In this document: positions 2,352 to 26,674 of the stretch, piece by piece
Layout of the letters: every line of letters starts with the position of its first letter
Position numbering within the stretch: position 1 is the stretch's first letter
NCBI GenBank assembly: GCA_021792635.1
Contig: JAJYUH010000001.1
Span: 136,515 to 200,514 of the forward strand
DNA from: Natronospirales bacterium
GTDB taxonomy: Bacteria; Pseudomonadota; Gammaproteobacteria; Natronospirales; REEB76
Direction of reading: 5' to 3'
DNA length: 64,000 nt
Notes under the pieces: model-generated
The model's database searches: none
Told to the model about the DNA's origin: nothing
What the model saw: only the letters and a program-made list of their open reading frames with translations
Position numbers and translations under genes: made by a program

Positions 2352-3656
2352 CTAGCCGGCGGCTTTCTGCCGCTTCTGCCAGACGTAAATCGGGACTCCC
2401 ACCAGCATCAGCAGCGTGCCCCAGTAAAGAGAATCCCTGCCGGTGCCGGCTGCGGCCCACAGCGCGAAGACGAACGCCAGACAGGCGAGTACGGTGCCGC
2501 GTACGCGTATGCCCAGCGCGCGGGCACGGTTCCGGGTACGGCTCAACACGATCTCGGCCATGGAGCAGAACATGTAGGGTACCAGCACGAAGAAAGTCGT
2601 GATCAGGATGAGGGTGGTAAACATCGCCACCAGACCGTGGCTGTAATTCGTCAGGATAAGCAGGCTAGCCAACACGCTGGAAAGCAGCAATCCGTGCGTG
2701 GGGGTATGGCGGCGCGATTCACGCGCAAACAGCTTGGGGAACAGACCGTCATTCGCCACTGCCTGGGGAAATTGTCCCTGCATCAGGATCCAGCCGTTGA
2801 GCGCGCCGAAGCAGGAGATCAGGGCGGCGGCGGCGATAAGATAGCCGGCCCAACTGCCCCACAGCATCTTGGCGGCATCGGCGAAGGGCGCATTGGAATG
2901 TGCCAGCGCAGTGCTGGGAATGATGCCCATCACCACCGTGGTGCAGACAATATAGAAGAACGCGGCGATGAGGGTGCCGAGCATGGTGGCACGCGGGATG
3001 GTTTTCTCCGGATTCTTCACGTGCGCCGCGGGGATGGTGGCGCATTCCAGACCCAGGAACGCCCACATGGTCAAGGCGGTGGTTTTGTTGATGGCCGAGA
3101 ACGGCGATAGGGTCGGGTGCGCGGAGTGGAATATCTTCGGATCGAAGTGGAAGATGCCGAATGCCGCCAGTGCCAACAGGGGGCTGAGCTTGAGAATTAC
3201 GGTGATGAGCTGCACATTGCCCGCCGCGCGCACGCCCCGGATGTTGACTGCGGTGAGCAACCATACGGCGGCAAGCGCCGCGAGCGCACCGAAGAGCGGC
3301 GTCGAAGCCAGCGCCGGAAAGAAGTCCGCCAGGTAGCTGGCGAAAGCCACGGCGATGGCGGCGTTGGTGCCGAGGATACTGAGCCAGTAGATCCAGGCGA
3401 TCAGGAACCCGGGGAAATCCCCGAAGGCCTCGCGCGGGTAGGCGTAAGGACCGCCGGCCCTGGACAGGCGGCGCGACAGGCTGCTGAACACCCAGGCCAG
3501 CAGCAACGCGCCGCAGGTGCTGAAGCCCCAGCCCCCCAGGCTGTAGGTGCCGTAGATGGCCAGCGAGGCGGGCAGCAGGAACACCCCGGACCCCACCATA
3601 TTACCGAGTACAATCGAGGTGGTGGTGGCCAGGCCGAGACTGCGTTGATTTTGCAT
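2352..3656 (-). CDS. AdiC-like amino acid/polyamine antiporter (APC superfamily)
   Basis: A 434-residue inner-membrane transporter with about 12 hydrophobic segments. The first helix carries GNMVGSGVFLLPASLA, very close to the helix-1 substrate-binding loop of the arginine/agmatine antiporter AdiC. Two tryptophans known to be important in AdiC have counterparts here: one in MWAFLGLE and one in NGWILMQGQ. HVKNPEKTIPRAT is the usual conserved loop. The family exchanges basic amino acids and polyamines (AdiC, CadB, PotE), but the exact substrate cannot be read from sequence. The gene is divergent from the small protein and deoxyhypusine-synthase-like gene that follow, which suggests a link to agmatine or polyamine metabolism; that link is inferred. 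Confidence 0.85.
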   Translation of the reverse strand: MQNQRSLGLATTTSIVLGNMVGSGVFLLPASLAIYGTYSLGGWGFSTCGALLLAWVFSSLSRRLSRAGGPYAYPREAFGDFPGFLIAWIYWLSILGTNAAIAVAFASYLADFFPALASTPLFGALAALAAVWLLTAVNIRGVRAAGNVQLITVILKLSPLLALAAFGIFHFDPKIFHSAHPTLSPFSAINKTTALTMWAFLGLECATIPAAHVKNPEKTIPRATMLGTLIAAFFYIVCTTVVMGIIPSTALAHSNAPFADAAKMLWGSWAGYLIAAAALISCFGALNGWILMQGQFPQAVANDGLFPKLFARESRRHTPTHGLLLSSVLASLLILTNYSHGLVAMFTTLILITTFFVLVPYMFCSMAEIVLSRTRNRARALGIRVRGTVLACLAFVFALWAAAGTGRDSLYWGTLLMLVGVPIYVWQKRQKAAG

Positions 3657-4055: not shown

Positions 4056-5030
4056 ATGAACACCCAGCCCGTCGCCGATTTCATCCGGCATCATTACCGC
4101 CATTTCAATGCCGCCGCACTGATAGATGCGGCAGAGGGTTATAAAAAGCTGCTCAAGGCTGGTGGCAAAATGATGGTAACGCTGGCCGGCGCCATGAGCA
4201 CCGCGGAACTGGGGCTGTCGCTCGCCGAGATGATCCGCCGCGACCAGGTGCAGATCATCACCTGCACCGGCGCGAATCTCGAGGAGGACATTTTCAATCT
4301 GGTGGCCCATGACCATTACGTGCGCGTGCCGCAGTACCGGCAGTTGTCGCCGGCCGAGGAGCAGGCACTCCTGAAACGTCACCTGAACCGTGTGACCGAC
4401 ACCTGCATCCCCGAGGGCGAGGCCATCCGCCGCATCGAGCAGGCGATTCTTGCGGAGTGGACCGCGGCGGACGGCAAGGGCGAGCGCTATTTCCCCCATG
4501 AATTCTTTTACCGCCTGATCCGCTCCGGCGTGCTCCAGTCCCACTACCAGATTGAGCCGAAGGATTCCTGGATGGTGGCCGCCTGCGAGAAGAATCTGCC
4601 GATCATCGTGCCGGGCTGGGAGGATTCCACGCTCGGCAACATCTTTGCCGCGCATTGCCTCAAGGGCGACGTGAAGAACGTGCACACGGTGCGCACCGGC
4701 ATCGAGTACATGATGCTGCTGGCGGACTGGTACCGCAGGAACTCGGCCGGCCGGGGTGTGGGCTTCTTCCAGATCGGCGGCGGCATCGCCGGGGATTTCC
4801 CCATCTGCGTGGTGCCGATGCTGGAACAGGACATGGAGCAGGACACGCCTTTGTGGGCCTATTTCTGCCAGATCAGCGACTCCACCACCAGCTACGGTTC
4901 CTACTCCGGCGCCGTGCCCAACGAGAAGATCACCTGGGGCAAACTCGGTGCGGACACGCCGCGCTACATCATCGAGTCCGACGCCACCATTGTGGCGCCG
5001 CTGATTTTCGCCTGCGTATTGGCCGATTGA
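4056..5030 (+). CDS. Deoxyhypusine-synthase-like enzyme
   Basis: A 324-residue cytoplasmic protein of the deoxyhypusine synthase family. The conserved segment SGAVPNEKITWGKLG contains Lys296, matching the catalytic lysine (Lys329 in the human enzyme) that accepts the aminobutyl group from spermidine. NAD-binding signatures of the family are also present (TLAGAMSTAELG, CTGANLEEDIFN, FFQIGGGIAGDFP). Bacteria have no eIF5A hypusine pathway, so the bacterial enzymes must use other acceptors, making homospermidine-type or guanidino-polyamine products. The start at 4056 follows AGGCGAG. The divergent AdiC-like transporter supports a polyamine or agmatine role, but the product here is inferred and not shown. 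Confidence 0.85.
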   Translation: MNTQPVADFIRHHYRHFNAAALIDAAEGYKKLLKAGGKMMVTLAGAMSTAELGLSLAEMIRRDQVQIITCTGANLEEDIFNLVAHDHYVRVPQYRQLSPAEEQALLKRHLNRVTDTCIPEGEAIRRIEQAILAEWTAADGKGERYFPHEFFYRLIRSGVLQSHYQIEPKDSWMVAACEKNLPIIVPGWEDSTLGNIFAAHCLKGDVKNVHTVRTGIEYMMLLADWYRRNSAGRGVGFFQIGGGIAGDFPICVVPMLEQDMEQDTPLWAYFCQISDSTTSYGSYSGAVPNEKITWGKLGADTPRYIIESDATIVAPLIFACVLAD

Positions 5031-11703: not shown

Positions 11704-12027
11704 TCAGCCGTCCTTTTCCAGTACCACAGCCGTGCCGTAGGCCACGATTTCGCTCATGGTCTGGCCGATTTCCGAGGAATCGAAGCGCATCACGACGATG
11801 CCGTTGGCGCCCATGGCGGTGGCGTTCTGCACCAGCCGATCCACCGCATGCCGCCGCGCCTCTTCGAGCATCTGGGTGTATTCGGTGATCTCACCGCCCA
11901 CCAGCGAGCGCAGCCCGGCCATGATGTTACCGCCGATGCCGCGGCTGCGTACCACCACGCCGAACACCTGGCCCTTGGTTTCCCTGACCCGGTAGCCCGC
12001 TGCATATTCGGATGTCACGACGATCAT
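11704..12027 (-). CDS. YbjQ/UPF0145 family protein
   Basis: A 107-residue YbjQ-family protein (UPF0145, heavy-metal-binding-like domain, dodecin-like fold). Diagnostic sequence is VVVRSRGIGGNIMAGLRSLVGGEI, followed by EEARRHAVDRLVQNATAMGANGIVVMRFDSS and ending in YGTAVVLEK. The family is common and oligomeric, and its function is unknown. It is the first gene of a two-gene unit with the small membrane protein. Confidence 0.88.
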   Translation of the reverse strand: MIVVTSEYAAGYRVRETKGQVFGVVVRSRGIGGNIMAGLRSLVGGEITEYTQMLEEARRHAVDRLVQNATAMGANGIVVMRFDSSEIGQTMSEIVAYGTAVVLEKDG

Positions 12028-12143
12028 GCTGGATGCTCCCTTTCAGTATGGATGTTTGAGCGGCATAGGATACGCCGAAGTATATTTTTGTGCGGCCGGT
12101 GGTCGCGTGCGTTTTTTAGGGCGGGTTCCCGCACCCGCGGGCG

Positions 12144-12171
12144 GGGCACTTTTGTTTCGGCAAAAGTGCCC
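12144..12171. repeat. Hairpin of a dispersed intergenic repeat
   Basis: A perfect 11-base-pair inverted repeat: GGGCACTTTTG at 12144-12154 and its complement at 12161-12171, with loop TTTCGG. It sits in a longer conserved-looking element (GCGGGCGGGGCACTTTTG, then CCGGAGCGCGGGTCGCCGA) of a kind found between genes in many gammaproteobacteria. A structurally comparable hairpin lies at 25415-25438. Confidence 0.7.
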
Positions 12172-12463
12172 AAAACCATTCCCCCGGAGCGCGGGTCGCC
12201 GAAGCGGCGGCTGCCCTGCGCACTTCCTTCGCTACGGAGTCCCGCCGACAGGCCATCCGTGGCCTGACGGCGGCAGCGCGAACATCCTGTTCGCGCCCCT
12301 TCGGGCTTAACCTTGCTCAGTCCAGTGCTCGGCTCGCGCTGCGGGTATTCAGAGAACCCGCGAAGCGTGGGCGACTCATGGCTGCGAGCGCTGCACGCTC
12401 GGCGGAATCCACGGGTTTTGATTAGAAAGGGCTTACTCGTTATCGCCTCATCATTTTCGATTT

Positions 12464-12500
12464 ATGTAGGTTGTGGGTGAGGCGCCAGCCGAACCAAACA
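12464..12500. repeat. GTAGGTTG...GGTGAGGCG dispersed repeat, copy 1
   Basis: TGTAGGTTGTGGGTGAGGCG, then CCAGCCGAACCAAAC, matches the reverse complement of 25107-25150 (TAGGTTGCAGGTGAGGCG, then GCAGACGAACCCCAAC) at most positions. Both copies flank the AT-richer accessory islands. Confidence 0.7.
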
Positions 12501-12555
12501 AGTCCGACCAATCTCGTTGGGGCTCGCTTCGCTTGCTCCGTCTTATGCTGCGCAC

Positions 12556-13455
12556 CTACTTTTCTTCTCGCGCAAAAATGGAATAGGCCGGGATCAGGCC
12601 TCTGCGCTGCTGTCGCCAATGCGTGTAATTTATTTTGGTTGTGTCTAGAAACGCGCTACCGTCGCGCAATTTTGTGGTTCCCGTGCCAGTCGTGTTGTAG
12701 GTCTCTGTTCGACGGGAACCAGTATCTTCATTTACTTTGCTACCGACATACTTCCAATCTGCGTCGCGTTTCTGATGGCCTTTAAGCTCTGCAAACATTA
12801 CGTGAATGAATTCAATGCCGGTGTTAGTCCTCTCGAAGCAAAGGACCGTATGCCATCCGCTGTGCCCGTTGTGCGACTCTCCGCCTTTTCCGATCTGAAT
12901 TGTCGCTTTCACTTCAAGGCCAACTTTTGTTGTTTGACAAATCAGATCTGGGTAGCGTTGGTCATGGTTATGCTTGAATGTAGTGCGCTGATCCATCGCA
13001 TCAGTGAATACATTAGAAACAAGCCCACTGAAATTGTTGCCTTGAATCAGTTCCTGTAATGGGCGGCCCACTTCCACGGTCATGTTGCGATTGATCAGGT
13101 AAAAAATCGCTTGCGTTTGATTTAGTGCATCTTCGAGCGCTTGGAACGTAAGTGCCCCCGGCAAGGGTACGCTCCGCCGGAAGTACGCACCGTTGACTTT
13201 CGGTGTGCGCAATCGGTCGGTGCCCTCATAGGCCAGCGTGACCAACGCCTTTACAGGGAAGCCTAGCGCTTCAGATAGCCGCTGCAGTACGCTGATAGAG
13301 AAGTTCTCTCGGCCGTTTTCAACACCGGAAAGATACTGATACGTGATACCGGCCTTTGCTGCAAGCTGTTCAAGGGTAAGGCCTTTTTGTTCGCGCCCTG
13401 CGCGAACGGCGCGGCCGATAAGGAATTGTGCCTCTTGGTTTTCGGAGCTGGTCAT
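12556..13455 (-). CDS. HTH-fused Type II restriction endonuclease candidate
   Basis: A 299-residue protein. Residues about 13-70 form an XRE/Cro-type helix-turn-helix (GLTLEQLAAKAGITYQYLSG, VENGRENFSISVLQRLSEAL). Residues about 100-299 are unlike a regulator and include YPDLI at 168-172 and LEVKAT at 180-185, a good PD-(D/E)XK nuclease signature with Asp170, Glu181 and Lys183. The gene is divergent from a DNA methyltransferase 55 bases away. The simplest reading is a restriction endonuclease whose N-terminal domain also acts as the controller of the pair. Base composition is lower in GC than the flanking housekeeping genes. Recognition sequence is unknown. Alternative: a DNA-binding regulator with a nuclease-like but inactive domain. 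Confidence 0.8.
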   Translation of the reverse strand: MTSSENQEAQFLIGRAVRAGREQKGLTLEQLAAKAGITYQYLSGVENGRENFSISVLQRLSEALGFPVKALVTLAYEGTDRLRTPKVNGAYFRRSVPLPGALTFQALEDALNQTQAIFYLINRNMTVEVGRPLQELIQGNNFSGLVSNVFTDAMDQRTTFKHNHDQRYPDLICQTTKVGLEVKATIQIGKGGESHNGHSGWHTVLCFERTNTGIEFIHVMFAELKGHQKRDADWKYVGSKVNEDTGSRRTETYNTTGTGTTKLRDGSAFLDTTKINYTHWRQQRRGLIPAYSIFAREEK

Positions 13456-13474
13456 ACGTATTGAAGTCTACGGT

Positions 13475-13504
13475 TTGCGTTGGCCCCGGTCTTTCATCTA
13501 TAGT
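13475..13504 (+). promoter_or_regulatory. Predicted promoter giving a leaderless methyltransferase mRNA
   Basis: TTGCGT (13475-13480), 18 bases, then TATAGT (13499-13504). Six bases separate the -10 element from the ATG at 13511, so transcription would start at the A of the start codon. No ribosome-binding sequence is present in front of the gene. An 8-base palindrome ATACGTAT at 13454-13461 overlaps the divergent start codon and is a candidate operator. Confidence 0.55.
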
Positions 13505-13510
13505 TGAAAT

Positions 13511-14467
13511 ATGTCATTTGTTCTGCACAATGGCGACTGCCTCGATTGGCTTGTTTCGCAGCCAGCGAACACCATTTGTGCTGTAGTTACGGACCCGCCA
13601 TATGGCCTGATCGAATTTTCGGAGAAGGAGCGCGGAATCCTACGGAACGGCCATAGCGGAGGTGTTTGGAGGATTCCTCCGAAGCTCGGAGGGGTCGAGC
13701 GCGATCCACTCCCTCGCTTCACAATACTGACTGACGACGAGAAAAAGAAACTGTGGAAGTACATGCGAGATTGGGCTGCGGCGTTGTTGCCTGTGCTCGT
13801 ACCTGGTGCACACGTTTGTGTCGCCGGGAATCCCTCACTTCAATACCTTGTTCAGTCAGCGGTGGCCGAAGCGGGATTCGAGGTTCGATCAGCAATTATG
13901 CGGCTGTATGTTGGCCTGCGAGGCGGCGACCGACCGAAATTAGCTGAGAAGGAATTTCCTGATGTTTGTGTAACGCCTCGCGGGGGTTACGAGCCATGGA
14001 TGCTCTTCAGAAAACCCATCAGTGAGCGAACGGTAGCTGACAACCTTCGGCGATGGGGTACTGGTGGGTTGCGGCGCTTATCAGGTGAAAAGCCACTCCC
14101 AGACGTTATGCAATCTGCACGCACACCCGATGTCGAAACGAACCTATCGAAGCATCCCACAATGAAACCTCAGCATCTGCTGCGGATCTTGGTGCGTGCG
14201 ATGTTGCCTCTGGGCAACGGTGTAATACTTGATACATTTGCTGGTTCCGGGTCAACTCTGGCCGCGGCCGAAGCTGTTGGCTATGACTCGATTGGCATTG
14301 AACTTGACCGACATTACTACGATGAGGCTACTAAACTGATCCCACTATTAGCGAAGCTATACCCAGGATTTACCGGGGACTCACTTGAACAGCCTTCTGC
14401 TCTTCTTGAACCGTCAAATATGCCGCGCAAGCAGTCGAAGAAAACGCGTCAGCACTCACTCCTTTGA
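13511..14467 (+). CDS. DNA methyltransferase (N4-cytosine/N6-adenine, beta class)
   Basis: A 318-residue DNA methyltransferase. Motif IV is DPPYG (28-32) near the N-terminus and the AdoMet-binding motif I is DTFAGSGS (241-248) near the C-terminus; this order is the beta class, which modifies exocyclic amino groups. KHPTMKP before motif I is typical. It is divergent from the HTH-nuclease gene and should protect the host recognition site. No Shine-Dalgarno sequence is visible and a -10 box lies six bases before the ATG, pointing to leaderless translation. The last about 40 residues are polar and Lys/Ser rich. Confidence 0.9.
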   Translation: MSFVLHNGDCLDWLVSQPANTICAVVTDPPYGLIEFSEKERGILRNGHSGGVWRIPPKLGGVERDPLPRFTILTDDEKKKLWKYMRDWAAALLPVLVPGAHVCVAGNPSLQYLVQSAVAEAGFEVRSAIMRLYVGLRGGDRPKLAEKEFPDVCVTPRGGYEPWMLFRKPISERTVADNLRRWGTGGLRRLSGEKPLPDVMQSARTPDVETNLSKHPTMKPQHLLRILVRAMLPLGNGVILDTFAGSGSTLAAAEAVGYDSIGIELDRHYYDEATKLIPLLAKLYPGFTGDSLEQPSALLEPSNMPRKQSKKTRQHSLL

Positions 14468-14645
14468 ATCCTAGCGAACCGATTCTCTCGTCTTCCAATT
14501 ACAAGGTTCTTAGTAGGCCTATCCATTTAGCAAACGATTCGTAAAGACCGGGTCCGTGCGGTAAAGGAGCGATTTGACGGAAGTCGTGGCAACGGAATAG
14601 CCTACCAGTGAGCGTGTATCTGAGGTCCATTGATGAGGTTTTCCT

Positions 14646-15110
14646 ATGTCTTACCCAGTGTTTATAAGCTATTCAACACTTGATTTAGCGGTGGCAAAAT
14701 CATTGCGTGAATGGCTGAGTTCTGCTGGCGCTAGCGTCTTTCTAGCAGAATACTCTGTGCAGCCGAGCCAGCCATTGTCAGCAAGCATTACCAATGCAAT
14801 AAGAGGTTGCGATTTATTTATTCTTCTTTGGAGTAGTAATGCCAAGACATCAGAATGGGTGCCGCAGGAAATTGGTATTGCCAAAGGCGCACAAAAACCA
14901 ATTATGCCAGTGATACTTCACGCAGGCATTGAACTACCGGGATTTGTTCGCGACTTGAAATATCTAGAGCTTTACAAAGATCCGCAGGCGGCGGCGCAGT
15001 GGCTTCGCAATTTTGTTATTACACAGCAAAAGAAAAAAGAAACTGACACCTTGATGCTATTAGGCATAGCTGGGGCTGTCGTATTTGCCTTATTGGCTGG
15101 CGGTAAATGA
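14646..15110 (+). CDS. TIR-domain protein with C-terminal membrane anchor
   Basis: A 154-residue protein. Residues 1-125 form a TIR domain: YPVFISYSTLDLAVAKSLREW, then GASVFLAE, SITNAIRGCDLFILLWSSNA and WVPQEIGIAKGAQKPIMPV. Glu75 in WVPQE sits where catalytic TIR NADases have their glutamate, so NAD-directed activity is plausible. A charged linker (QQKKKETD) is followed by one hydrophobic helix (134-151), predicting a membrane anchor. The gene lies 178 bases after the methyltransferase and has GAGG before its start. TIR proteins commonly act in antiphage defence; no partner sensor is present here, so the role is inferred. Confidence 0.85.
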   Translation: MSYPVFISYSTLDLAVAKSLREWLSSAGASVFLAEYSVQPSQPLSASITNAIRGCDLFILLWSSNAKTSEWVPQEIGIAKGAQKPIMPVILHAGIELPGFVRDLKYLELYKDPQAAAQWLRNFVITQQKKKETDTLMLLGIAGAVVFALLAGGK

Positions 15111-21680: not shown

Positions 21681-23363
21681 ATGGAAAAAATCTGGCTCAA
21701 GGAATATCCCAAAGGCGTGCCCGCCGAGATTGATCGCAATCAATACGCATCTTTGAAGGCGATTTTCGAGGACAGTTGTCGCCGGTATGCGGGTTTACCG
21801 GCCTATTCCAATCTGGGCGCTACGCTCGACTATGCGAACCTGGAACGGCTGAGCCGCCGCTTCGGTGCGTATTTGCAAAAAACAGCGGGTCTCAAACAGG
21901 GCGACCGGGTCGCCATCATGATGCCCAATCTGTTGCAATATCCGGTGGCGCTGTTCGGCATTCTGCGCTGCGGCATGGTGGCGGTGAACGTCAATCCGTT
22001 GTACACCGCCCGCGAACTCGAACATCAGCTTCAGGACTCCGGCGCACGCGTCATCGTGATCGTGGAAAATTTTGCCGCTACCCTACAGGAAGCACTGCCC
22101 CATGTGGATGTAAAAACCATCGTTACTACGCAGATTGGCGATCTGCTGCCGTTCCCAAAACGCACGCTGGTGAATTTTGTGGTGAAGCGCGTGAAGAAAA
22201 TGGTACCGGCCTGGCGGATCCCCGGTGCTGCTTCATTCCGCGCGGCGCTAGCGCAAGGCGCAGCACAGACGCTGGATGAAGTGATAGTTAACCATGAAGA
22301 TATCGCTTTTCTGCAGTACACCGGCGGCACCACCGGCGTTGCCAAGGGTGCGGTGCTCACCCACGGCAACATGGTAGCGAACGTGCTGCAGGCGTCGGCG
22401 TGGCTGGGCGCCTACCTGAAAAGCGGCCAGGAAGTCATCATCACGGCGTTGCCGCTGTACCACATCTTTTCGCTTACCGCGAACTGCCTGACATTCATGC
22501 AGATCGGCGGTCACAACGTCCTGATCACCAACCCGCGCGACATGCCCGGCTTCGTGAAGGAGCTCGGCAAGGTCAAGTTCAGCGCCATCACAGGCGTAAA
22601 TACCTTGTTCAACGGATTGTTGCACACACCGGGTTTCGACAAGCTGGATTTCTCCGCGCTCAAGATCGCGCTGGGTGGGGGCATGGCGGTACAGCGTGCG
22701 GTGGCGGCGAAATGGAAAGAGGTAACCGGGGTTACGCTCATTGAAGCCTACGGTCTTACGGAAACGGCGCCGGCGGCGTCCATCAATCCGCTGGATCTCA
22801 AGGACTACAACGGCAGCATCGGCCTGCCGCTTCCCTCCACCGACTTCTCCATCCGCGATGATGTCGGCAAGGAACTCAAGGTGGGCGAGGTCGGCGAGAT
22901 CTGCATCAAGGGGCCGCAGGTGATGCGCGGCTACTGGAACCGCCCGGATGAGACCGCCAAGGTGCTGTCGGCCGACGGCTGGCTGCGCACCGGTGACATA
23001 GGCCGCATTGATGCGCGCGGGTACGTGTATATCGTGGATCGCAAAAAGGACATGATCCTGGTGTCCGGTTTCAACGTGTACCCCAATGAAATCGAGGATG
23101 TAATGATGATGTATCCGGGAGTGCGCGAGGTGGCAGCCGTGGGAGTTGCAGACGAACATTCCGGCGAAGTGGTGAAATTGTTTGTGGTGAAGAAAGACCC
23201 CACGCTCACCGTCGAGGCTCTGAAAGAATGGGCCCACAAGGAACTCACCGGCTACAAGCGCCCCAAGTACATCGAATTTCGCGATGAATTGCCCAAATCC
23301 AACGTCGGGAAAATATTGCGACGGGAATTGCGGGAAGCGGAACTGAAAAAGCAGCAACATTAA
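21681..23363 (+). CDS. fadD: Long-chain fatty acid-CoA ligase
   Basis: A 560-residue AMP-forming acyl-CoA synthetase that activates fatty acids for beta-oxidation or lipid synthesis. The phosphate-binding motif is [16 protein letters not shown] (from about residue 213), the adenine motif is YGLTETAP (from about 357), and the C-terminal hinge and catalytic part include [12 protein letters not shown] and the final [10 protein letters not shown] with the catalytic Lys. Length and pattern match FadD. A GAGGAGCG site precedes the ATG. Confidence 0.94.
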
Positions 23364-23416
23364 CTTAAAGGGCTCTGAAATCGTACTCAGGCGCCGTATT
23401 GACTGACGGAGAATAT

Positions 23417-23959
23417 GTGACTATCAAAGTGCTTTTTTTTGATACGAGTGCATTACTCAAGATGTTCGTTCAAGAACAAGGAAGTGACAAGGTAAGGTGG
23501 CTCACCTCACACGATACTAAGGTGACCATGGGACTTCATTTTGTAGTAAATGAACAGGTTTGCATTGAATTTGACCGGAAACTAAGAGATTTCTCCAGCA
23601 ACGGCAAGATACCTGCTGTCGAAGCCGATCGAATCGGCCGTGTCTTTAATCGAGATCATAGAAACAAATGTTTTCAGGTAGTCGGACAGAAGATAATTTC
23701 CAATACGAAACAAGAGAAGACCTTGAATACGATTTGTCAGGACCTGAACTTGAGGGTTGGGCAGAATGATTGGGATGGCCGCATATGTCAATCAATTGTC
23801 AATGCCCTCGCATTTCTTGGCGGGGCATCCCATCCGATTTTGGTTACCTGCGACGGTGCCTTCGGAAGGAAGGCTATGAGTAAAGGGTATCGAGTAATTG
23901 ATCCAGCGCGACAGAGCTTGGACGAAATTCGCGCGGTAATTAGCCAACAAATCATTTAG
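23417..23959 (+). CDS. PIN-domain RNase (VapC-like)
   Basis: A 180-residue PIN-domain protein. The first strand carries FFDTSALLKMFV with Asp9, a VapC hallmark; further acidic residues are Glu46 or Glu52 (VVNEQVCIEF), Asp118/Asp120 (NDWDGRICQSIVNAL) and Asp146 (VTCDGAFG), the expected metal-binding set. It is likely a metal-dependent RNase. The GTG start at 23417 follows CGGAGA; a TTG six codons upstream is an alternative. No small antitoxin is seen upstream of it; the downstream neighbour (188 residues) is a possible partner. The region is AT-richer than its surroundings. Confidence 0.8.
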   Translation: MTIKVLFFDTSALLKMFVQEQGSDKVRWLTSHDTKVTMGLHFVVNEQVCIEFDRKLRDFSSNGKIPAVEADRIGRVFNRDHRNKCFQVVGQKIISNTKQEKTLNTICQDLNLRVGQNDWDGRICQSIVNALAFLGGASHPILVTCDGAFGRKAMSKGYRVIDPARQSLDEIRAVISQQII

Positions 23960-23985
23960 TCTGATCGCCTCTATCCCAAGACTAA

Positions 23986-24552
23986 ATGAATCACGGCTTT
24001 CGTAAAAGAGGTAGGCAGCAGACCATAGCAGGTCGCCGTCCGGCGAAGAAACAACATGAACGTGCAGTGATCGATGAGTTTCTTACTTGGCTCAACAAAC
24101 ATAGAGGAACACGGTTTAAAGTCGTCGCTGAACCCGACCCACCAGATGCGATTATTGCCTCAGTCCGCGCAAAGAGTTGGATCGAGGTAGCTGATGTATT
24201 TTGGACGACCAACTACGCTCGGCATCTCTATTCTTACGCAACGCCAGGTGAAAGGCGTTACCCACTTAACCCAGGTTACTATAGCCAGATGGATCAAGCA
24301 TTTGCGCAATGTTTCGTCTATGTGCTCTCCACTAAGCTGAAGAAACGTAGCTACCTTCCGTTTCTTAAGCGTTATGGCGCTGGTTATCTGGTCATACGAG
24401 TTCAGCATCCATGGTTTGACGGGCAGACGATCCGAGAGATGAGAGATTACTGGCGTGCGGAGCAACCAGTCAGGAATCTTGGGTGTTTCGATGCGGTGTA
24501 TGTTAAGTTTTCATCGATGAATCGCTTGGCATTCAGGAAATGGCAGGTATGA
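23986..24552 (+). CDS. Unknown protein with nuclease-like PD...E-x-A signature
   Basis: A 188-residue protein that I could not place in a named family. The N-terminus is very basic (RKRGRQQ, GRRPAKKQHER). Residues 49-69 include EPDPPDAIIA and SWIEVADVFW, which fit the spacing of a PD-(D/E)XK nuclease core with Asp54 and Glu67, except that the position of the usual lysine is alanine (EVA). Glu26 could supply the first acidic residue. It follows the PIN gene by 26 bases and probably shares its transcript. Possibilities are a partner or antitoxin for the PIN RNase, an independent nuclease, or a DNA-binding accessory protein. Confidence 0.7.
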   Translation: MNHGFRKRGRQQTIAGRRPAKKQHERAVIDEFLTWLNKHRGTRFKVVAEPDPPDAIIASVRAKSWIEVADVFWTTNYARHLYSYATPGERRYPLNPGYYSQMDQAFAQCFVYVLSTKLKKRSYLPFLKRYGAGYLVIRVQHPWFDGQTIREMRDYWRAEQPVRNLGCFDAVYVKFSSMNRLAFRKWQV

Positions 24553-24625
24553 AGCATTGCCATCTCTCTCCGTCATCAAACGGACGTGTACCATAGCGGC
24601 CGTGTCGTCTGGATACTATAAGGTT

Positions 24626-24662
24626 CCTCGCTGTTTCTTGTGAAACGAAACAATGCGCGAGG
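24626..24662. repeat. Interrupted inverted repeat upstream of the DUF4156 lipoprotein
   Basis: CCTCGCTGTTTC pairs with GAAACA and GCGAGG across a 9-base loop and a 4-base bulge (ATGC), a stem of 12 base pairs. It ends just in front of a perfect -10 hexamer TATAAT at 24666-24671. It could be an operator or an mRNA/DNA structure at this promoter. Confidence 0.6.
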
Positions 24663-24665
24663 TAT

Positions 24666-24671
24666 TATAAT
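24666..24671 (+). promoter_or_regulatory. -10 element for the DUF4156 lipoprotein gene
   Basis: A consensus TATAAT about 64 bases before the ATG. The -35 region at normal spacing is poor (AAACGA); TTGTGA at 24638-24643 is 22 bases upstream, too far for a standard promoter. Activator dependence, perhaps through the adjacent inverted repeat, is possible. Confidence 0.45.
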
Positions 24672-24734
24672 ATTGTGTGGTATCTGATCTATTAAAAACA
24701 TCCATACAAATCTCTAAACTATATGGAGAAATCA

Positions 24735-25085
24735 ATGAAAAGAACCATCCTAATTTTGGTTGCGACGTTGATATTATTGGGATGTTCTGCCATTTCGCTT
24801 AAACCCGGAGCAGAAAAAGTCCTAATCACCGATACGAAGCCAGCAGATGGGTGTAAATTTTTGGGTGAAGTAGTCGGAAACCAAGGGAATTTTTTTACGG
24901 GTCGTTATACCTCAAATGAGAACCTCGAGATAGGTGCGCAGAATAATCTTAAAAACAAGGCCATGGAAATGGGAGGCAACGTAATAGTCCTTTTGACTCA
25001 GCGAGCAGGTCAAACAACAGGTATGTATGGAGCGGGCAGTGAGACAAATGTTACTGTATCCGGAAATGTCTACAAATGTCCTTAG
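24735..25085 (+). CDS. DUF4156-like lipoprotein
   Basis: A 116-residue lipoprotein. The hydrophobic signal segment ends in the lipobox LLGC, with the lipidated Cys at about 17. The remaining domain has DTKPADGCKFLGEVVGNQGN, then LKNKAMEMGGNVIVLLTQ and the C-terminal GNVYKCP, a pattern matching DUF4156 outer-membrane lipoproteins of unknown function. The ATG at 24735 has GGAGA five bases upstream; an in-frame ATG four codons earlier lacks one. Base composition is like the preceding two genes and unlike the chromosome around it. Confidence 0.8.
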   Translation: MKRTILILVATLILLGCSAISLKPGAEKVLITDTKPADGCKFLGEVVGNQGNFFTGRYTSNENLEIGAQNNLKNKAMEMGGNVIVLLTQRAGQTTGMYGAGSETNVTVSGNVYKCP

Positions 25086-25106
25086 AGCACCTAGCAAAAT
25101 GAGCTC

Positions 25107-25149
25107 GCGTAGGTTGGGGTTCGTCTGCCGCCTCACCTGCAACCTACGC
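25107..25149. repeat. GTAGGTTG dispersed repeat, copy 2, with inverted ends
   Basis: GCGTAGGTTG (25107-25116) and CAACCTACGC (25140-25149) are perfect 10-base inverted ends around TCTGCCGCCTCACCT. In reverse complement the element matches 12464-12500, placing the same repeat beside both accessory inserts. Confidence 0.7.
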
Positions 25150-25414
25150 AAGATTGAATAGCGATGCGGTGGTCGTGGCGTGTGATCTTTCTTGTAAACC
25201 CCGTGGATGACGCCGAGTCTCGTAGCCCGACGAGGGTGAAGCCCACCCATAGGGTGGGGCGAAGTCAGGATGACGAACCGGCGCAGCGGGCCAAGGATGG
25301 CCCGTCTGCGCCGCCCCGAGTCGGGCGAGAAACGAGGGTACGCGGCTAAAACCGAATGTTCTCTCATTCGGTTTTAGCCAAGCGCGGAATCCTCGGGGCG
25401 TGTTTCTTTGGTGA

Positions 25415-25438
25415 CTTTCTTTGCACGTACAAAGAAAG
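25415..25438. repeat. Hairpin of a dispersed intergenic repeat
   Basis: CTTTCTTTG (25415-25423) and its complement (25430-25438) form a perfect 9-base-pair stem with loop CACGTA; after one mismatch GTG/CAC extends it. The structure parallels the hairpin at 12144-12171. Confidence 0.6.
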
Positions 25439-25507
25439 CCACCCGGCCGCGGGACGGAATCCCGCCCTCAAAAGTGGTTGCCGCCGGAGGCGGCTGCATT
25501 CAAGATC

Positions 25508-25534
25508 TGGATTCCGGCTGTTGCCGGAATGACG
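25508..25534. repeat. Dispersed TCATTCC...GGAATCCA palindromic repeat, copy 2
   Basis: TGGATTCCGGC and GCCGGAATGACGA, with an 8-base perfect stem (25511-25518 with 25523-25530) and loop TGTT. It is the reverse orientation of the copy at 11341 and lies 39 bases from the end of hemE. Confidence 0.7.
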
Positions 25535-25572
25535 ATAAGACGAAGCGGCGGTTGCCTTGCAGCCGCATCAAT

Positions 25573-26643
25573 TCACTTGTGATAGGCCGGGCTCAATTCA
25601 TGAACGGCTGCAACCATCGCCGCGACACTTTCGGGTTTGGTGCCGATTTGGACGCCGTGGCCCAGATTGAAAATGTGGCCCGGACCGTGACCATAACTGT
25701 CCAGGACTTTCTTGACTTCTTCGCGGATGCGTTCGGGCGGGGCGTAAAGCGCAGCGGGATCGAGATTGCCTTGCAGCGCGACCTTGTCTCCGACACGGCG
25801 GCGTGCGTCACTCAAATCCTGTGTCCAGTCCACGCCCAGCGCATCGGCGCCGGAATCCGTCATAGCTTCCAGCCACGGGCCGCCGCCTTTGGTGAATAAA
25901 ATCACCGGCACGCGCCGGCCTTCGTATTCGCGTTGCAACTCTGCAATCACCGCGCTCATGTAACTTAGGGAAAACTCTTTATAGGCTTGGCCGGTGAGCA
26001 CGCCGCCCCAGGTATCGAACAGCATAACGGCTTGGGCGCCGGCGGCAATCTGAGCGTTCAGATACAATGCGACGCTGCGCGCCAGCAGATCCAGCAGTTT
26101 GTGGAGTGTCGCCGGTTCGCGGTAAAGCAGACCTTTGACCAAAGCGAATTCCTTGCTGGCGCCGCCCTCGACCATGTAACAGGCCAGCGTCCAGGGGCTG
26201 CCGGCGAAACCGATGAGCGGCACGCGGCCGGCGAGTTCGCGGCGGATCAGGCGCACCGCATCCAGCACGTAGCGCAATTCCGTTTCCGGGTCGGGCATTG
26301 CCAGTTTCGCCACTGCGGCGGCATCCCGCACCGGCCGTTCGAAGGCCGGGCCTTCGCCTTCCACGAAATGCAGGCCCAGACCCATGGCCGCGGGGATGGT
26401 GAGGATGTCGGAGAACAAAATCGCCGCGTCCAGCGGAAAGCGATTGACGGGTTGCAGCGTGACTTCGCAGGCCAGTTCCGGTGTGCTCATGAGTTGGATG
26501 AAACTGCCGGCGCGGGCACGGGTTTCGCGGTACTCGGGGAGGTAGCGGCCCGCCTGGCGCATGATCCATACGGGCGTGCGCGGCGTGGCTTCGCGCAAGA
26601 GCGCACGCAGGAGCAGATCGTTTTTGAGTACGGTTTGCGTCAC
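25573..26643 (-). CDS. hemE: Uroporphyrinogen decarboxylase
   Basis: A 356-residue HemE, which decarboxylates uroporphyrinogen III to coproporphyrinogen III in haem synthesis. Diagnostic segments are [20 protein letters not shown] near the N-terminus, [20 protein letters not shown] and the C-terminal FNLGHGV. Two in-frame GTG codons (26652 and 26643) are possible starts; 26643 gives the standard N-terminus VTQTVLKND and lies close behind GAGGCGA. The leader contains a tandem purine-rich duplication (26647-26674). The gene is downstream of pyrF and in the same direction. Confidence 0.94.
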
Positions 26644-26646
26644 TCG

Positions 26647-26674
26647 CCTCACCCCTCACTCCTCACCCCTCACT
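26647..26674. repeat. Perfect 14-base tandem duplication in the hemE leader
   Basis: CCTCACCCCTCACT occurs twice without a gap (26647-26660 and 26661-26674). On the hemE mRNA strand it reads AGTGAGGGGTGAGG twice, giving several Shine-Dalgarno-like GAGG/GGGG runs ahead of the GTG starts. Confidence 0.85.

Follow-up and report, generated by a model that had tools for sequence, protein, structure and literature searches.

DUF1626 and DUF506 are examples of PD-(D/E)XK families with a displaced lysine, as far as the account of these families in Knizewski et al. (2007, PMC1913061) goes. In DUF1626 threonine often takes the place of the motif III lysine, which according to that account is thought to have shifted to the motif IV helix, behind strand 3. 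VapC, a type II toxin, carries an N-terminal D-T-S-A...E...SDKV stretch. Hotspots lacking mobile elements, as described in PMC5635113, hold variable cargo between core genes.

The locus reported here lies between fadD and hemE in a window of 64,000 nucleotides, which is the whole stretch of DNA analysed, and it resembles each of these systems in part. One of its genes encodes a 188-aa nuclease-like protein (23986–24552, forward strand), to which the working name ren is given here. The ren family shares with the displaced-lysine families of PMC1913061 the PD and E motifs, threonine in motif III of the relatives of ren, and conserved lysines on the helix following strand 3 or just behind it. ren differs from these families in matching no Pfam, NCBIfam or PADLOC model. 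The neighbouring PIN-domain protein has the D-T-S-A...E...SDKV stretch of VapC and four acids that can be placed, but it consists of 180 rather than 140–145 residues, aligns poorly in its C-terminal half and lacks a VapB/Phd gene. The gap itself resembles the hotspots described in PMC5635113 in holding variable cargo between core genes with no integrase seen, but it spans only 1–2 kb and its variability is scored on seven species-level genomes of one genus, not on strains. The original prediction treated PIN and ren as a paired module. The gap is probably an integrase-less variable slot that holds independently acquired nuclease passengers, and not a PIN-ren pair. A slot of this kind, small, variable and flanked by core genes, is easily taken for a functional gene pair. 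In addition, an unnamed nuclease-like family can now be assigned a motif, a predicted fold and a context (an integron array with Shedu, and variable slots), and thereby becomes testable.

Gene content and variability of the fadD-hemE gap

The left flank of the gap is fadD (long-chain acyl-CoA ligase; 21681–23363, forward strand), named by inspection of its protein and in the original prediction. The right flank is hemE (25573–26652, reverse strand), which is convergent with fadD. fadD orthologues also adjoin hemE in the genomes G002, G003 (partial), G010 and G005. After fadD come roughly 1.75 kb of AT-rich inserted sequence (23364–25108), which is absent from G005 and G010. This insert is followed by a repeat-bearing intergenic stretch common to G002, G008 and G010 (25109–25538), and the right edge of the insert lies near 25108, where this repeat-rich stretch starts. 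The palindrome GCGTAGGTTGGG...CAACCTACGC of the repeat stretch occurs once in the genome of the window. The GC content is 0.41–0.50 across the insert patch and about 0.60 in the surroundings, as expected for the AT-rich insert that had been proposed. A further lower-GC stretch (0.49–0.55) is found at 12001–15000 of the window.

The insert contains three genes on the same strand as fadD. They encode the PIN protein (23417–23959), ren, which starts with ATG, and a DUF4156 lipoprotein (24735–25085; Pfam E=4.6e-30), whose lipobox LLGC is read from the translation. The lipoprotein gene starts at the ATG at 24735, with GGAG upstream, and its open reading frame is listed from 24723. The PIN and ren reading frames are thus present as originally described and do interrupt the fadD-hemE region, but the interruption is larger than was proposed, because the earlier coordinates leave out the third co-oriented gene. 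The GTG codon at the start of the PIN gene is favoured over TTG at 23399, which is also possible, because GGAG is located just before the GTG. PIN and ren are 26 bp apart, and this spacing and the shared orientation suggest that they are co-transcribed. No terminator-like site is reported between fadD and PIN, so that read-through from fadD into PIN may occur. No integrase reading frame is recognised in the insert, and none of the PADLOC families of known anti-phage defence systems is matched by PIN, ren or the DUF4156 lipoprotein.

hemE is matched in seven of the 11 genomes of the genus, and the neighbourhoods of the other six were compared with the window (G000); the remaining four genomes are uninformative. 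Only 40 bp separate fadD from hemE in G005. In G010 the distance is 538 bp; the gap there contains only repeats, which match 25190–25449 of the window, and the motif GCAGGTTGGG is located 9 bp after the fadD stop. Comparison with these two gaps indicates that the foreign part of the window extends from 23364 to about 25108. The gap is effectively empty in G005 and G010, and contains differing reading frames in G000, G002, G003, G007 and G008; the contigs of G007 and G008 end before fadD, and the gap is occupied as far as they reach. The cargo is located between the fadD side and the repeat-bearing sequence adjoining hemE. It consists of 230- and 174-aa proteins with no Pfam match above the cutoff and no PADLOC match in G002, and in G003 of a 173-aa protein distantly related to ren and a 103-aa protein that has a lipobox. 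The cargo of G008 is a 171-aa protein that matches PADLOC PDC-S61 (2.2e-6) and phrog_34041 (1.6e-16), and whose IIDIKTTK stretch looks like PD-(D/E)XK by eye, and that of G007 is an HNH protein (Pfam HNH_3, 1.4e-5, above the cutoff). Three of these four genomes have nuclease-like cargo, and one of these three proteins is the distant ren relative. The Pfam PYRIN match of the 173-aa protein (E 4e-4, below the cutoff) is taken as chance. A lone PF09720 addiction-module component (E=5.6e-18) is encoded in the repeat part of the gap of G002 (L010, 3634–3840).

These comparisons show that the content of the convergent fadD-hemE gap varies within the genus. The gap is probably a small slot for insertions, which in this species acquired an orphan VapC-like PIN ribonuclease, ren and the DUF4156 lipoprotein independently of each other.

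Family, motifs and predicted fold of ren

Residues 17–149 of ren match phrog_23471 (PHROGs v4, function unknown) with E=3.3e-13. Other matches to this family are found at the loci L040 (1.1e-33), L030 (1.1e-29) and L039 (1.9e-4). The close relatives of ren are encoded in G591 (L030/L035, profile E=7.4e-30), a Granulosicoccaceae MAG (L031=L037=L039; the gene is cut at the contig start) and Psychrobacter luti (L040), and the distant ones in G505 (L032/L036) and the slot of G003. The identity of ren to L039, L040 and L030 is 36%, 25% and 22%, respectively. Because distant relatives match it in length and motifs, ren is a real gene and not a chance frame.

Relatives are rare in the collections searched. 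The ren protein alone matches only its own genome among 95 relative genomes and again among 398 genomes of the phylum, and nothing beyond its own genome in plasmids, phages, viral contigs and genome contigs; no phage record is matched by tblastn. The phrog_23471 profile finds six of 350 class genomes at E<=0.05, its own included, and only its own among 299 phylum genomes. G020, whose frame is interrupted, and G650 (E 0.03) were left out of the family alignment, and none of the reading frames of the G650 region passed the inclusion threshold of the four-sequence ren profile. Alignment-based scans matched 97 stretches of genome contigs, two of which are ren relatives, and found no relatives in viral contigs. 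The back-translated pattern YSYATPGE matched eight viral stretches, none of them related to ren. Literature searches found no paper on the ren family or on a PIN-ren pair among the papers listed, and no credible match to a PDB sequence is found.

Residues P53, D54, A55, K63, W65, E67, D70, A78, P93, D103, K117, K120, G131, G133, L135, P142, F168 and Y172 are invariant in ren and its three close relatives. When the two distant sequences are added, P53, D54, E67, D103 and K120 remain invariant in all six, and K117 is kept in the closest five (a five-sequence alignment without G505). The PPD...IEVA core noted originally corresponds to P53-D54 and E67-V-A69. D54 and E67 are the motif II aspartate and the motif III glutamate of PD-(D/E)XK, and both are invariant in the six sequences. 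ren shares its motifs with the phrog_23471 members that score 1e-29 to 1e-33. It differs from its three close relatives in the position two after E67, which is Ala in ren and Thr in these relatives; the six sequences have A, T, T, T, T and S there, so that ren alone has Ala and none has Lys. The original prediction was right that Ala occupies the Lys position in ren, but this is not a loss special to ren: it is a family trait, with Ala, Thr or Ser there in all six sequences. The conserved K117/K120 could replace the Lys, a variation published for other families (PMC1913061).

An AlphaFold model of ren, built from three sequences (pLDDT 74.6, pTM 0.75), has the element order H-E-E-E-H(H,H)-E-H-E-E, which fits PD-(D/E)XK. 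It consists of a helix (17–40), three strands (45–48, 55–58 and 63–72), three helices (75–82, 99–118 and 121–130), a strand (133–140), a helix (146–159) and two strands (170–175 and 183–186). In this model D54 is located beside the second strand and E67 within the third, while a later helix ends around K117, so that K117 and K120 lie on the helix that comes after strand 3 or just beyond it. The ren family fits, by analogy, the displaced-lysine pattern described for DUF1626 in PMC1913061. VIA-align of the model gives matches to PaqCI (Z 6.7, rmsd 3.9, 117 aligned), XisH 2okf (Z 6.7, 3.4, 115), MspJI (Z 5.2, 3.2, 103), Hjc (Z 4.2, 3.6, 85) and Shedu (Z 4.2, 4.5, 116), as well as to CdiA-CT toxin domains. 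The central domains of acetyl-CoA carboxylase score Z 5.3–7.3 and rank level with the nuclease matches or above them. All these fold matches have middling Z scores under 8, with PD-(D/E)XK proteins at 4–6.7 and unrelated folds at about 7, and a Foldseek search of the PDB gives nothing at E<=0.001. The assignment of ren to this fold rests for this reason on motif and topology and not on Z, and the motif and the element order of the model support the PD-(D/E)XK resemblance that had been noticed. The fold search against BFVD gives one match at E<=0.001, an uncharacterised giant-virus protein.

The absence of the Lys, and the replacement of Thr by Ala in ren, would also be expected if ren were a catalytically dead protein of the PD-(D/E)XK fold that works by DNA or protein binding. 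This is unlikely, considering that the two acids and the helix lysines are conserved in distant relatives and that DUF1626 offers a published precedent in which Thr occupies motif III and the Lys has migrated to the helix of motif IV (PMC1913061). Rather, ren most likely cuts nucleic acid with an active site of D54, E67 and either K117 or K120, the lysine being shifted to the next helix, to judge from its conserved residues and model.

The PIN protein and its relation to ren

The PIN protein has only one match in Pfam, PIN_12, with E=0.13 and 13.1 bits against a cutoff of 32. Its full acidic set can be placed as originally described, as D9, E51, D118 or D120, and D146, the first two by alignment and the third and fourth by eye. 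Weak matches to it occur in two other genomes among 398 of the phylum and in two of the ten other genomes of the genus; its single-protein search gives no match in plasmids or viral contigs. All four matches are VapC-like genes of 140–145 aa that are directly preceded by a small Phd/YefM-like gene (the PIN proteins of L019 and L020 and the L019 antitoxin were examined with Pfam, and the other antitoxins were assigned by eye), and they align with only about the first 80 residues of the PIN protein or fewer. The AlphaFold model of the PIN protein has a pLDDT of 43.7, which is too poor for a structure search. Ordinary VapBC-type pairs are located elsewhere in the genome, before a glycosyltransferase-like gene, in G010 (L041, 756–1471) and G007 (L042, 1228–1943).

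No VapBC-type antitoxin gene is found beside PIN, as was noted originally. The 53 bp between the fadD stop at 23363 and PIN leave no room for a small reading frame, and the first gene after PIN is ren. The absence of an antitoxin gene, the 26-bp spacing on one strand and the foreign composition of the insert are what would be expected if PIN and ren formed a two-gene toxin-antitoxin or abortive-infection module, in which PIN would be the RNase toxin and ren its neutraliser or a second effector; toxin-antitoxin genes also lie near several ren relatives (YafQ/RelB in L035, and Gp49/HTH pairs in L037 and L036). However, a sequence similar to the window PIN is found in none of the loci of the five ren relatives, three close and two distant (tblastn E<=1, which detects proteins similar to this PIN and not every PIN; one locus is cut at the contig end inside the gene, so that its upstream side is missing). 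Among the neighbouring reading frames of the relatives, read by eye and partly by Pfam, no PIN hit is seen. Moreover, the VapC genes that PIN weakly matches are of the ordinary kind, each preceded by an antitoxin gene of its own, and the predicted fold of ren is nuclease-like and not of the DNA-binding antitoxin type. Pairing of PIN and ren thus lacks support from conservation, the absence of PIN being weak evidence because the relatives are few, and a two-gene module is improbable. The original observation is confirmed, and its interpretation is partly supported: the co-occurrence that a paired module would lead one to expect is not seen among the relatives.

Neighbours of ren relatives and the origin of the cargo

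The ren relative of G591 lies between two attC-like hairpins, at about 3485–3605 and 4929–5049 of L035, in an array that also encodes Shedu SduA (PADLOC 1.3e-100), YafQ and RelB. Positions 1–5169 of L035 form an integron-like cassette array with four attC-like hairpins that share sequence, and an HdeA-like protein is among its genes. This context raises the possibility that the three genes of the insert entered a secondary site as integron cassettes. A strict attC scan, which found one site in L035, gives no candidates in 23301–25600, and a relaxed scan gives only one weak hairpin (93 bases, -18 kcal/mol), which is located inside the coding part of ren. An integron origin of the insert was rejected on the result of the strict scan, and is very unlikely. 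The insert shows neither an integrase nor attC, and for this reason exchange of the cargo by homologous recombination is proposed instead, probably across the flanking core genes or repeats. The relative of Psychrobacter luti lies alone between parC (by eye) and a MATE-like gene (MatE, E 0.0034, below the cutoff). ren is probably carried as a mobile single-gene passenger, likely a defensive or selfish one.

The 173-aa slot protein of G003 shares 30% identity with ren across 149 columns (BLASTP pairwise E=8e-7), a score reached by none of 2000 shuffles (1871 of which gave an alignment). It is the best non-member of the four-sequence profile among 1426 reading frames (E=0.0016), followed by G505 (0.0019). 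Searched alone, it matches none of 398 genomes and nothing in plasmids, phages or viral contigs. The two proteins are read, from their sequences, as distant homologues, which would represent either two captures of related genes by one slot or an old, fast-diverging resident. The identity, the shuffles and the profile are consistent with a ren-like gene in the slot of the common ancestor of G000 and G003, whose two copies diverged vertically. Vertical descent is nevertheless doubtful to the point of being unlikely, given that the flanking hemE is 86% identical as compared with 30% for the slot proteins, that neither PIN nor DUF4156 is present in G003, whose own lipoprotein lies on the opposite side, and that phrog_23471 does not match the G003 protein.

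In four of the six loci, ren or its relative has a neighbouring gene with a lipobox: the window (24735–25085), L011 of G003 (4505–4816), L035 (3653–4135) and L036 (5485–6213). Such a neighbour is not found in L040, and L037/L039 is cut on one side. These neighbours, which belong to different families, lie on different sides and were noticed post hoc, could be chance or mobile-gene company; a crude lipobox scan flagged two of 66 gene-like reading frames of the window and missed the DUF4156 gene and that of L035. It is possible, but can be held only with low confidence, that the gap is a genus-specific miniature integrase-less defence slot, into which small stand-alone nucleases are taken repeatedly (ren in G000, its relative in G003, the PDC-S61-like protein in G008 and the HNH protein in G007), and that ren founds a displaced-lysine family travelling with small lipoproteins. 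The Gp49/HTH pairs close to ren relatives are of the HigBA type, and are located at 3504–4138 of L036 and 2201–2826 of L037.
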